DNA of 28,660 nucleotides, from IMG/VR virus record IMGVR_UViG_3300028925_001825, positions 1 to 28,660 of that record; one strand, written 5' to 3'. The stretch comes from a virus. Every line of letters begins with the position of its first letter. The first letter of the stretch is position 1. The notes under the pieces were generated by a model, which made no database searches, was not told where the DNA came from, and saw only the letters and a list, made by a program, of their open reading frames with translations. This document shows positions 23,139 through 28,660 of the stretch, piece by piece. The translations under genes were made by a program, and so were the position numbers.

Positions 23139-23157
23139 TGTTACCACTGTGGTAACA
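23139..23157. promoter_or_regulatory. Palindrome box 1 (TGTTACCACTGTGGTAACA)
   Basis: A perfect 19-bp palindrome with a single central base. It lies upstream of the rightward promoter-like sequence and the 179-aa gene. It is followed by CTGACATAT (23159-23167) and GTGACAACACC (23168-23178), which recur near box 2. Confidence 0.85.
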
Positions 23158-23266: not shown

Positions 23267-23806
23267 ATGAACAATCTAAACGTAGCAACATTAGCCCTCC
23301 TTACTGACACTGCAAAGGCTGAGAAGCGCACCATGGTAGCCATGATCAAGGCCATCGACGCGGTGCAAGCAGAGGGCAAGACTAGCCTACACTTCACGAC
23401 CCCTAGCAAGCCCGAGTCACTATGCAGCCAAGAGCAATGGGATGAACTCAAGGCAGCAGTCCACAAGTCATTCACTAAGGACGAGCAACGTATTCTTAAC
23501 TTCACTAAGGCGGACGCTAAGATGCTGACCGATGAGCAGAAAGAGGTGAGACGGGCTAAGATACAAGACACCGGCAAGCAGATAGGCAAGTGGAAGCAAG
23601 CACTAGCACGTCGAGAGAAGGCTGATAGAGAGCCAGTGACTAGCACTCTTGAGGCAAGGACTCACACTAAGATAGAGGCCATACTCAAGACACTGCAAGC
23701 GACCGAGCAGTTCGACGGTAACTTACTGGCACTGTTTGAACTACTCAAGATGGCACTGGATGAAATCAACATCGAGTTACCGGAACCATCTGAACCATCA
23801 CACTAA
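23267..23806 (+). CDS. Unknown early-block protein (179 aa)
   Basis: The ATG has AAAGGA about 10 bases upstream. The protein is soluble, Lys/Glu-rich and mainly helical: NVATLALLTDTAKAEKRTMVAM at the start, LHFTTPSKPESLCSQEQWDELKAAVHKSF in the middle, then ILNFTKADAKMLTDEQKEVRR and a C-terminal helix pair (IEAILKTLQATEQ, LLALFELLKMALDEINIELP). No signal peptide, membrane segment or catalytic motif is visible, and I do not recognise the family. It is the first gene of the rightward block and stands alone, ending in a strong terminator, so it is transcribed as a monocistronic unit. Such placement is common for host-takeover or regulatory genes, but that is speculation. Confidence 0.82.
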   Translation: MNNLNVATLALLTDTAKAEKRTMVAMIKAIDAVQAEGKTSLHFTTPSKPESLCSQEQWDELKAAVHKSFTKDEQRILNFTKADAKMLTDEQKEVRRAKIQDTGKQIGKWKQALARREKADREPVTSTLEARTHTKIEAILKTLQATEQFDGNLLALFELLKMALDEINIELPEPSEPSH

Positions 23807-23950: not shown

Positions 23951-23969
23951 TGTTACCACAGTGGTAACA
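23951..23969. promoter_or_regulatory. Palindrome box 2 (TGTTACCACAGTGGTAACA)
   Basis: A perfect 19-bp palindrome inside the non-coding repeat region. Like box 1 it is followed by CTGACATAT (23974-23982). No gene start lies close downstream, so this copy is not simply a leader element. Confidence 0.85.
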
Positions 23970-24542: not shown

Positions 24543-24561
24543 TGTTACCACAGTGGTAACA
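24543..24561. promoter_or_regulatory. Palindrome box 3 in a leader (TGTTACCACAGTGGTAACA)
   Basis: A perfect 19-bp palindrome about 40 bases downstream of the predicted transcription start and 25 bases before the ATG at 24587. In RNA it could fold into an 8-bp stem with a 3-base loop just before the ribosome site. Confidence 0.85.
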
Positions 24562-24805: not shown

Positions 24806-24824
24806 TGTTACCACTGTGGTAACA
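24806..24824. promoter_or_regulatory. Palindrome box 4 (TGTTACCACTGTGGTAACA)
   Basis: A perfect 19-bp palindrome in the 42-base gap between the 69-aa and 110-aa genes, 14 bases before the ATG at 24839 and abutting its ribosome site. Confidence 0.85.
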
Positions 24825-25462: not shown

Positions 25463-26368
25463 ATGAACAATCAAATCGCAGCACCACAAGTAGAAGTACC
25501 AACACTGGCCGCACGCACGCTGGCCATCGACCTCAACATATCAGTATGGACAGCTCGCAAGAAAGACAAGCGCGCATCACGCAAGGTCAACGACGACAAC
25601 TACGCTATATCTGACGCATCCACCGTAAACAAGAACCTACTCGCAGGTTGTGACTTGCTCACCGAACTCAAGACGTTCGCAGGTAAGATACGCTCCGTGC
25701 ATTACAGCTACACACTACCATGGACTGACAGCGGCACGCGTATCATTATGACCGCAGGCTATCCCGATTACATCACCACTATCACTGGCATGATTGCCGA
25801 CTTCAATTGCGTAGTGGATGAATTCATCGATCAGTACGACTTCGAGGTTATATCATCCAAGGCACGCCTAGGTACTATGTTCGACGAAGCCGAGTACCCA
25901 CCGTCGTGGCAAGTGCGCGATAAGTTCGCCGTCAAGCTAACGTGTTCACCCGTGGCTGACATGCACGACTGGCGGCTCGACGTAGACCAAGACGTACAAA
26001 CATGTTTTGACGAGGCTATGTCTACCTACGGCAACGCTATGGAGCAACGCATCAATGGCGCTATGACTGACATACACCAACGCTTGCACAAGGTACTGTC
26101 CAACATGTCCGAACGACTCGACTACGTAGGTGACAACGACAAGAAGACGTTCCGCAATACCTTGCTCGACAACGTGCTCGACATCGTAGACCTCATGCGC
26201 AAGTGTAACCTGACCGACGACACCCAACTGACTGCGCAGGCTGACACGTTAGAGCGTGCGTTACGTGGTGTATCGCCCGAGGCATTACGTGACAGTTCAC
26301 AACTACGCGCCGAAACCAAGCGCACGGTGGATGAGGTTATCGCATCCCTACCATCAATCGACCTGTAA
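25463..26368 (+). CDS. DUF3150-like protein (301 aa)
   Basis: The ATG at 25463 has GGAGAG upstream; the frame extends 15 codons further into the previous gene without support. Features fitting the DUF3150 type: LAARTLAIDLNISVWTARKKDKRASR with a short Val-Asn motif at the start, NKNLLAGCDLL, then YTLPWTDSGTRIIMTAGYPDY, VVDEFIDQYD and EAEYPPSWQVRDKFAVKLTCSPV. A helical C-terminal half follows. I recall this family encoded next to MoxR-type ATPases and VWA proteins in phages and integrative elements, as here. It may be a substrate adaptor or structural partner of the ATPase, but its biochemical role is unknown. Confidence 0.78.
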   Translation: MNNQIAAPQVEVPTLAARTLAIDLNISVWTARKKDKRASRKVNDDNYAISDASTVNKNLLAGCDLLTELKTFAGKIRSVHYSYTLPWTDSGTRIIMTAGYPDYITTITGMIADFNCVVDEFIDQYDFEVISSKARLGTMFDEAEYPPSWQVRDKFAVKLTCSPVADMHDWRLDVDQDVQTCFDEAMSTYGNAMEQRINGAMTDIHQRLHKVLSNMSERLDYVGDNDKKTFRNTLLDNVLDIVDLMRKCNLTDDTQLTAQADTLERALRGVSPEALRDSSQLRAETKRTVDEVIASLPSIDL

Positions 26369-26388: not shown

Positions 26389-26408
26389 TGTTACCGTATA
26401 CGGTAACA
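26389..26408. promoter_or_regulatory. Palindrome box 5, variant centre (TGTTACCGTATACGGTAACA)
   Basis: A perfect 20-bp palindrome with the same TGTTACC arms as boxes 1-4 but a GTATAC centre that is one base longer and symmetrically changed. It lies in the 69-base gap 29 bases before the MoxR-like gene. Confidence 0.85.
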
Positions 26409-26437: not shown

Positions 26438-27526
26438 ATGAACACACCACAACGTATGTACGCACTAGACCGTAAACAAGCCGTGACTTTCATCAACCAA
26501 ACATCAGACATGGTTACCGTGTGTGCGCTAGGTCACACTGGCACAGGCAAGACTTGGATGTTCGAAGAGCTATGCGCTCTCAACCCTGACCACATACCAT
26601 GCTTCTTCGACGGTGCTAACAAAGACCAAGGCGATATGTCTATCCCTGACATCAAGGGCAGCACTGACGCGCTCAAGTTCATACCCAACATCGAGCTGGG
26701 TGTACACCATGGCAAGCCCATCTTGCTAATGGTTGACGAGTACCCCAAGTGTAACCGCTCAATCAAGCTAATGCTCAACAGCTTAATACACGAGCGCAAG
26801 TTCGCAGGCCACACGTTAGCAGCAGGCAGTAAGATTGTACTCACTGGTAACCTTGGCGCTGAGGGATTGGGTGACCTAGTGGAGGCACACACCGCTAACC
26901 GTATGACTGTGTTTGAACTCAAGAAGCCCGACCACATGGAGTGGATCGAGTGGGGTATCAACAACGGCATCGACCCTACTATTCTTGGCTGGGTGAAAGA
27001 CAACCCGTCTGTATTCGCTGACTTCCGTGACGTCAAGAACCCTGACGAGAATCAGTACATACACCATCCGCAGGCCGTAGGACGTACGCAATTCTGTACG
27101 CCGCGTTCGTTCCACAAGCTGTCTAATATATTCAGCAAGCGCGAACACCTTGACGAACACACACTGACGTGTGCTGCTATTGGTACTATCGGCGCAGCCG
27201 CCGCGCTTGACCTTATGGCATTCGTCAAGCTGGCTAATCAGTTACCATCAACTGAGTCTATCAAGACTGACCCGCTCAACGCGACTGTACCCAACAGCGC
27301 CTCCGCTATATGTATGGTGGTGTATCGCACACTGGCAGGTATGGACAGCACGTTCGTTACGCCGTGGCTCACGTACCTCAATCGTTTGCCCGCCGAGGCA
27401 CAAGGTATGTTCGCTAACGGTGTAATGGTAGACAAGTATCACGCACAGAAAGTTGTTACCACCAACGCAGGTTGGGGCAAGTGGTGTATGGCCAACACAC
27501 ATCTATTCGCAGCAGACAAAGTATAG
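26438..27526 (+). CDS. MoxR-type AAA+ ATPase (362 aa)
   Basis: AAA+ motifs in order: Walker A GHTGTGKT (residues 32-39), Walker B ILLMVDEYPK with D100 and E101, sensor 1 in IVLTGNLGAEG (N138) and an arginine-finger candidate in HTANRM (R155). The N-terminal insert LSDIKGS-like motif (SIPDIKGST, 68-76) is typical of MoxR/CobS-like ATPases that act on protein substrates with VWA partners. The C-terminal half is a lid and helical region (CTPRSFHKLSNIF) without further known domains. It is flanked by the DUF3150-like and VWA-protein genes, 9 bases from the latter. A chaperone-like remodelling role is inferred from the family. A phage target is not known. Confidence 0.9.
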   Translation: MNTPQRMYALDRKQAVTFINQTSDMVTVCALGHTGTGKTWMFEELCALNPDHIPCFFDGANKDQGDMSIPDIKGSTDALKFIPNIELGVHHGKPILLMVDEYPKCNRSIKLMLNSLIHERKFAGHTLAAGSKIVLTGNLGAEGLGDLVEAHTANRMTVFELKKPDHMEWIEWGINNGIDPTILGWVKDNPSVFADFRDVKNPDENQYIHHPQAVGRTQFCTPRSFHKLSNIFSKREHLDEHTLTCAAIGTIGAAAALDLMAFVKLANQLPSTESIKTDPLNATVPNSASAICMVVYRTLAGMDSTFVTPWLTYLNRLPAEAQGMFANGVMVDKYHAQKVVTTNAGWGKWCMANTHLFAADKV

Positions 27527-27535
27527 GGAGCTATC

Positions 27536-28660
27536 ATGTTATCAATAGGCAAAGAACTAACCGCAGACCAACGCTTGCCCAAGGCGCTGGTATCAATTAT
27601 GCGCAGCGACAGGTACGTGGCACTGGCCAGTGTATTGATGTTGGGTGACCGCGTGATCGACAACGGCATGACTAACACCGCCGCTACTGACGGACGTGAC
27701 GAGTGGTATAACTCTGACTTCGTTGACACACTGATTGACGCCGAGCTACGTGCGCTTATCATTCACGAGTGTAAGCACAAGATGTACAAGCACCTTACAA
27801 CGTGGGCATGGGTGGCTTACAAGTACGGGCACAGTCTGACCAACCAAGCTATGGACTACGTTATCAACCTAGAGATCGTTGACGAGAACCCCGACGATTT
27901 CTGCAAGCTACCCGCTTGCGCATTGCTCGACGTCAAGTACCGTGGCATGACTACCGCACAGGTGGCCAAGGCATTACACCAAGACCAACAGCAACAGCAA
28001 CAGCAACAACCGCCCAATCCTTCAGGCAGTGGTACTGGTACACCTGACAACAAGTCTGGCGGTGGTATGGACGATCACGACTGGGACGGCGCCAAGGAAA
28101 TGACAGCCGACGAGCAAGCCGAGCTAACCAAGGAGATTGACGAGGCTATCCGACAGGGTGCGCTTGCCGCAAGCAAGATGGGCAAGGGTGGTAACACTGA
28201 CTTCGGTGACCTACTCAAGCCGCAGGTTGACTGGCGCGAGGCGTTGCGTGAGTTCATAAGTACAACGTGCGCGGGTAACGACTACCAAACGTGGAGAAGC
28301 CCGAACCGCAAGTACCTAGGCCATGAGATATACATGCCAACGGGGTACAGTGAGACGGTTGACGAGTTGACTATCGCCATCGACACGTCTGGCTCTATAG
28401 GCCGACGTGTTCTCACTAAGTTCATGTCTGAGGTCAAGGCCGTGTGCGATGTAGTCAAGCCCAATACTGTACGCATACTGTACTGGGGTAGTAGCGTAGT
28501 AGCTGACGAGGTATACGAGACACACGAGATACCCGACATACTCAACACGACCAAGCCCGTGGGTGGTGGTGGCACTGACGCAGCGTGTGTACCTGAGTAT
28601 ATGCGGGCTACTGGTATCAAGAGTCAAGCCACTATCATGTTGACTGACGGTTACATATAC
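27536..28660 (+). CDS. HExxH metallopeptidase-like / VWA protein (runs off the right edge)
   Basis: From the ATG at 27536 (GGGAG upstream) 375 codons are open to the edge. The N-terminal domain has HECKHKMYKH (HExxH at residues 77-81) followed by NQAMDYVIN (about 104-111), the pattern of DUF2201-type putative metallopeptidases. A linker with eight Gln (CAA/CAG run, 27986-28009) and Gly/Ser-rich sequence follows. The C-terminal VWA-like domain has the MIDAS motif DTSGSIG (283-289), VRILYWGSSV, GGGGTDAA (second MIDAS Thr/Asp region) and TIMLTDGYIY at the cut edge. It pairs with the MoxR-type ATPase. Protease activity is predicted by motif only. The C-terminus lies outside the window. Confidence 0.88.
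   Translation, partial: MLSIGKELTADQRLPKALVSIMRSDRYVALASVLMLGDRVIDNGMTNTAATDGRDEWYNSDFVDTLIDAELRALIIHECKHKMYKHLTTWAWVAYKYGHSLTNQAMDYVINLEIVDENPDDFCKLPACALLDVKYRGMTTAQVAKALHQDQQQQQQQQPPNPSGSGTGTPDNKSGGGMDDHDWDGAKEMTADEQAELTKEIDEAIRQGALAASKMGKGGNTDFGDLLKPQVDWREALREFISTTCAGNDYQTWRSPNRKYLGHEIYMPTGYSETVDELTIAIDTSGSIGRRVLTKFMSEVKAVCDVVKPNTVRILYWGSSVVADEVYETHEIPDILNTTKPVGGGGTDAACVPEYMRATGIKSQATIMLTDGYIY

Follow-up and report, generated by a model that had tools for sequence, protein, structure and literature searches.

A MoxR-type ATPase, a DUF3150-like protein and an HExxH-VWA protein are encoded together in phages, conjugative plasmids and a genomic island

The last three genes of a 28,660-base virus record (the window, meaning the whole stretch of DNA analysed here) encode a DUF3150-like protein, a MoxR-type AAA+ ATPase and an HExxH-VWA protein, and homology and gene neighborhood together indicate that they are a ternary module of mobile elements rather than a phage oddity. 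The preliminary description of this DNA had treated the trio as a phage system; that setting stands, but it is too narrow, as the trio also occurs on conjugative plasmids, on a genomic island and in bacterial genomes. The pairing of a MoxR ATPase with a zincin-VWA protein is already known; what is new, as far as the sources show, is the three-protein set that includes DUF3150, its spread across phages, plasmids and an island, and the use of HExxH as a criterion to tell these proteins from CobT. We judge the chances evenly balanced that the three proteins act as one ATP-driven protein-remodelling machine of mobile elements, with its likeliest target in DNA replication, recombination or defence. 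Relatives of the trio are present in hundreds of environmental viral contigs, and the IncC plasmid pNDM10505 has all three genes.

In the window, packaging and structural genes—among them those for the large terminase (E 4e-101), the portal and a capsid/protease—occupy the minus strand at bases 1–22,908; from 23,267 onward the genes are on the plus strand, and the trio stands last, at the right end. The DUF3150-like gene (25463–26368, plus strand) is an open frame of 301 aa, the MoxR-type ATPase gene (26438–27526, plus strand) an open frame of 362 aa, and the HExxH-VWA gene (27536–28660, plus strand; DUF2201_N plus VWA DUF2201) encodes 375 aa and is open at the contig end, with the C terminus missing. 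The protein assignments of the preliminary description are borne out by domain matches and motifs, by which each protein can now be attached to its own frame. The missing C terminus is supplied by a 97% identical contig, L004, which begins 49 bases before the VWA gene and reproduces those 49 bases of the window exactly, giving a protein of 405 aa in all; the other of the two nearest full-length relatives (L006) has 418 aa. At the start of the plus-strand early region, the gene at 23267–23806 weakly matches Avd (E 0.004), an accessory protein in diversity-generating retroelements; in 44 related loci a similar position is taken by a conserved gene of about 199 aa, of which the one member scanned has no Pfam match.

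Two Pfam families are matched by the HExxH-VWA protein (P0003): PF13203, DUF2201_N, a "putative metallopeptidase domain" (E=5.9e-20), and PF09967, VWA-like DUF2201 (E=1.9e-10). The HExxH zincin motif, HECKH, lies at residues 77–81 (27764–27778, plus strand), and is followed by an N-x-A-x-D-x-x-I-N helix whose D107 (27854–27856, plus strand) is invariant in 114 sequences; the MIDAS motif DTSGS, residues 283–287 (28382–28396, plus strand), completed by T347 and D371, is invariant in about 110. Conservation was assessed over 120 distinct VWA-protein sequences, each site being counted where covered, and every covering sequence retains H77, E78, H81, H86, N103, D107 and N111 as well as the MIDAS residues D283, S285, S287, T347 and D371. 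The preliminary description had made its reading of the N terminus depend on conservation of the HExxH glutamate and histidines; the glutamate and both histidines are invariant across 115 distinct sequences. An AlphaFold model of the L004 protein (mean pLDDT 83) places HExxH and N-x-A-x-D on two successive helices, residues 68–83 and 99–116 respectively, as in zincins. By analogy with that helix arrangement, and given its conservation, D107 would be the third metal ligand. The HExxH motif, the downstream ligand and the family profile argue, at the level of sequence, for membership of the zincin metallopeptidase class (DUF2201_N, PF13203); it is also possible that the domain is a metal site devoid of peptidase activity. 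A PDB fold comparison of the VWA protein gave matches essentially through the VWA domain and so identified no solved structure related to the HExxH domain.

The linker between the two domains, which varies in length, contains the run of eight glutamines singled out in the preliminary description (Gln8, CAR codons, 27986–28009, plus strand). The run is present, but it is neither conserved nor significant: relatives mostly have one to five glutamines at this point, and one has 17. The family to which P0003 belongs in PHROG (phrog_1314) is labelled "HNH endonuclease," and this label or "homing endonuclease" is widespread on GenBank phage records of DUF2201 HExxH-VWA proteins, where it has apparently spread by annotation propagation. 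We reject an HNH endonuclease identity for P0003, as Pfam gives only DUF2201_N and DUF2201 and no HNH domain.

The ATPase (P0002) matches a phage ATPase family (phrog_1297, E 3e-34), and midasin is its best sequence relative in the PDB; AAA_5 falls below the Pfam cut-off for the window copy alone. Its Walker A motif, GHTGTGKT at residues 32–39 (26531–26554, plus strand), has an invariant G and K, and Walker B residues D100 and E101 (26735–26740, plus strand) are invariant in the 107 sequences covering the site. Across the alignment the Walker A lysine, the Walker B DE, the sensor 1 asparagine and the sensor 2 arginine are kept, and the arginine finger is found in 104/106. The P-loop, Walker B, sensors and arginine finger, together with the adjacent MIDAS VWA gene, point to a MoxR AAA+ ATPase of the class that has a VWA partner.

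The window DUF3150-like protein (P0001) has no direct Pfam match. PF11348 (DUF3150) is matched by 9/11 aligned sequences of its family (best E 1.3e-6), 7 of the 18 records searched lie above the PF11348 cut-off, and a profile comparison aligns the window family with plasmid and bacterial DUF3150 at 95.9% probability (E 6e-9). A W-[ST]-x-R-K motif is conserved in DUF3150, and WTARKxDK stands at residues 29–36 of the window protein. The predicted fold (pLDDT 89, pTM 0.79) is a long antiparallel helical hairpin, with helices at 97–139 and 176–219, and a small strand-rich head; comparison of the model with the PDB gave no significant fold match, and there is no mention of DUF3150 in the literature searched. 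Distant DUF3150 relatives in Planctomycetota, in Desulfobacterales bins and in phage Tunturi_3 (L178–L181, L189) lack a VWA gene that could be detected in their neighborhood, and in several a PF00004-type AAA gene stands upstream instead; DUF3150 may, on this second arrangement, serve other AAA+ proteins too.

Linkage of the three genes was examined in viral contigs from IMG/VR, where scans gave at least 588 VWA relatives and at least 561 DUF3150 relatives, 80 of each being taken for neighborhood analysis. Duplicate proteins were removed from the counts, and 3.5 kb of sequence was required upstream of VWA genes and 3.8 kb downstream of DUF3150 genes. Both partner genes are present in 74/74 distinct VWA-anchored relatives and in 78/78 distinct DUF3150-anchored relatives, which excludes a chance association; the preliminary description had named rare co-occurrence of the homologs as what would speak against an operon, and the whole trio is found in every case. 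The DUF3150 proteins of this set have a median pairwise identity of 56%, and mean column identity of the three proteins is 46–63%. Most of these loci belong to a single phage group whose map is conserved, the terminase and portal genes lying on one strand and the trio, DUF3310, Hjc-like, PolA, PD-(D/E)XK and SNF2 genes on the other, and shared descent explains part of the co-occurrence. The order DUF3150–ATPase–VWA is seen in 130/131 phage loci. The linkage is supported independently by further elements in which the genes are ordered differently: ATPase–DUF3150–VWA in phage Pag-Yong1 and in the Cupriavidus conjugative plasmid pRK1-1, and ATPase–VWA–DUF3150 in L175, a MAG contig. In the phages the trio diverges from the terminase and structural genes and is followed by genes for PolA, a PD-(D/E)XK nuclease, an Hjc-like protein and SNF2.

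Palindromes mark the early region of the window. A perfect 20-bp palindrome, TGTTACCGTATACGGTAACA, lies at 26389–26408, between the DUF3150 gene and the MoxR gene, as a putative operator of the early operon, and a related 19-bp palindrome, TGTTACCACWGTGGTAACA, occurs four times in the early plus-strand region (23139–23157, 23951–23969, 24543–24561 and 24806–24824). Shuffles of the window yield no such repeated palindrome, and the late region has no copy, exact or with one mismatch. A palindrome of their own is repeated at least twice in 81/93 distinct relatives vs 0/279 shuffles; its sequence differs between the listed phages, and it often stands 20–50 nt before start codons. These sequences likely form an array of operators or stoperators that differs from phage to phage and serves the early operon; if so, the trio would belong to the early-operon regulon. 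A scan for promoter and terminator consensus sequences did no better than shuffles.

Outside phages, PF11348 was searched in 398 Pseudomonadota genomes, eight of which have a match above the cut-off. The canonical DUF3150 gene has a VWA neighbor in all eight (seven with canonical HExxH; one, G273, with an HExxxH variant), and a P-loop ATPase lies near it in 7/8; in G164 the ATPase is on a second contig end. The ATPases scanned beside bacterial DUF3150 are AAA_5 plus CbbQ_C proteins, and the bacterial VWA proteins match the CobT model. IncC plasmids, the Salmonella island and the bacterial genomes have the same three components as the window, with profile homology in the ATPase and DUF3150 and with the HExxH and N..ED site; their VWA partner is longer (545–731 aa) and CobT-like rather than DUF2201. 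Window-type ATPases align with the CbbQ/CobS-type ATPases of the bacterial trio at 96.6% probability (E 6e-10), and the match between phage and bacterial metallopeptidase domains, weak as it is (25% probability, E 8e-4), still aligns TDG, HExxH and the N...D helix. In pNDM10505 the order is ATPase, hypothetical, ssb, bet, exo, DUF3150, VWA, so that the trio brackets ssb-bet-exo and, unlike in the window, the ATPase is parted from DUF3150-VWA; a Salmonella genomic island has the same gene order. Counting the DUF3150 gene alone, relatives occur in at least 1,168 plasmid records, of which 978 are predicted conjugative and many come from Klebsiella, Escherichia, Citrobacter, Providencia and Salmonella; a second DUF3150 lineage, counted in the same way, occurs in 42 plasmid records, mostly of Burkholderiales. 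SetCD/AcaCD, which activate transfer, drive the bet-exo operon of SXT/R391 and IncC elements (PMC4344509, PMC4542580), and in SXT the loss of bet, exo, s067, s068 or s070 lowered transfer no more than 10-fold (PMC2791158). Judging from synteny, s067 and s068 are probably the DUF3150 and VWA genes; if so, the deletions argue for a role in SXT transfer that is modest at most.

Parts of this arrangement have precedents. NorQ/NorD and CobS/CobT, like the window pair, combine a MoxR AAA+ protein with a VWA co-chaperone, and in the former the MoxR ring engages its VWA partner and remodels its linker (PMC13036017); neither system is described with DUF3150. In group 2.2 jumbo phages, too, a MoxR gene lies close to one for a vWA protein whose N-terminal part is a metallopeptidase domain, a published pair for which virion assembly was proposed (Iyer et al. 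2021, PMC7824862). The jumbo phage PA5oct has relatives of both window proteins but, unlike the window, shows no DUF3150 gene in the vicinity of the pair. In the Schitoviridae, N4 gp24/gp25 are a homologous ATPase and HExxH-VWA protein, again with no DUF3150 detected; they have been called an AAA ATPase and a vWFA protein of unknown function (PMC2784036), and in LUZ7 their homologs lie upstream of helicase and DNA polymerase genes. Just upstream of the gp24-like ATPase of LUZ7, ORF36 (L003 1567–2409) is another AAA protein (PF00004, E 1e-13). The VMAP or iSTAND MoxR-vWA ternary conflict systems (PMC7159879) were considered and rejected, as the third component here groups with DUF3150 and has no VMAP/STAND match.

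In the machine that we propose, the three proteins would form a complex. As NorD does on NorQ, the HExxH-VWA protein would dock through its VWA domain on the MoxR AAA+ hexamer, and the hexamer would then pull or twist that domain. The window VWA partner has a zincin-like domain attached across a variable linker, and movement of the VWA domain may position or activate this domain, presumably metal-binding and a peptidase, on a target protein. The DUF3150 helical hairpin, with its W-[ST]-x-R-K motif, would be the adaptor that selects or presents the target, which may be a host or element protein of DNA replication, recombination or defence, remodelled or cut during establishment of the element. 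Such a target appears likeliest because the genes adjoin early or replication genes in phages and recombination genes on plasmids; that DNA metabolism or defence fits best is held with low certainty. The frame of the preliminary description, in which MoxR-VWA pairs remodel target proteins, agrees with the domains, the motifs and the NorQD precedent. Against a single ternary machine, the profile match of the phage and bacterial metallopeptidase domains is weak, the DUF3150 model resembles no solved fold, and N4-like and jumbo phages have the pair with no recognizable DUF3150. A more specific form of the proposal seems to us tentative, with the balance against it: DUF3150 would be the substrate adaptor of an unrecognised ATP-dependent zinc protease, its peptidase joined in one polypeptide with the VWA co-chaperone that serves a MoxR ring, common to phages, islands and IncC-type plasmids and dismantling a host DNA-maintenance or defence complex at establishment, with the phage "cobS/cobT" genes that have HExxH as a branch. 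The two-protein core is already testable as N4 gp24/gp25 in E. coli.

The preliminary description had offered host takeover, virion maturation and anti-defence as possible targets, and the list survives except for virion maturation as a general role. In that reading the MoxR/zincin-VWA machine would fold and cleave tail or head proteins, as published with the precedent of a two-tailed archaeal virus (PMC7824862); the record of the PA5oct ATPase (L186 1987–3102) carries the note "ESI-MS/MS," as do annotated structural proteins, which would allow its presence in virions, and in roseophage RPP1 virion genes lie near the gp24/gp25 homologs (PMC4193335). We nonetheless consider it improbable, because conjugative plasmids and a genomic island carry the trio and make no virion, because the window trio shares with replication genes an operon divergent from the structural genes, and because N4 gp24/gp25 are middle transcripts (PMC4193335). 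In an anti-defence device, a narrower version of our main proposal that we think possible but unlikely, DUF3150 would pick the target and the zincin would cut or dismantle a defence complex of the host shortly after entry. This reading accords with the presence of the trio on mobile elements in the cases examined, in an early or transfer-phase context, and with the suggestion that predicted zincins of jumbo phages cleave host proteins (PMC7824862), but defence or known anti-defence genes are not consistently adjacent, a PADLOC scan gave weak matches only, and the three proteins are well conserved rather than fast-diversifying.

A chaperone that inserts metal or cofactor, as NorQD and CobST do, would use the HExxH site to hold a metal or pass it on to a target enzyme, which might be a metalloenzyme of the phage or of the host. 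NorQD inserts iron (PMC13036017), and the CbbQ_C domains of the bacterial trio ATPases and the CobT matches of their VWA partners point the same way; we regard this role as quite improbable all the same, since it is precisely the HExxH and D residues that are missing from true CobT, the chelatase subunit, and no metalloenzyme gene is a consistent neighbor. HExxH is absent from 30/30 top-scoring CobT genes of 299 Pseudomonadota genomes, and in the alignment these CobT proteins have other residues in place of the two histidines, the glutamate and the D that comes four positions after N, the D107 position being mostly Q, T or S, while a neighboring E and R stay; the joint loss of the four is as expected if they make up one metal site. 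The same four residues are kept in the "CobT" of phages CRP-810, ICP2 and RHph_X66. It is therefore hardly tenable that such genes are cobalamin auxiliary metabolic genes (CobS/CobT), as GenBank labels those of CRP-810, ICP2 and Rhizobium phage and as PMC11288001 also claims, even though the bacterial trio VWA proteins match the CobT model: no cobN is annotated near the CRP-810, ICP2 and Rhizobium phage loci. On sequence grounds, the B12 annotation of the CRP-810, ICP2 and RHph_X66 genes appears doubtful, as do the B12 roles proposed for genes of this kind (PMC11288001), because HExxH separates the trio proteins from CobT. For the window pair we reject a CobS/CobT identity, P0003 being a DUF2201 protein with HExxH and no Pfam match to CobT. 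The presence or absence of HExxH thus offers a simple criterion between the trio machine and cobaltochelatase, and it bears on the treatment of phage cobS/cobT as B12 auxiliary metabolic genes. Annotations frequently give the trio subunits a wrong name, that of vitamin B12 genes (CobS/CobT) or of HNH nucleases.
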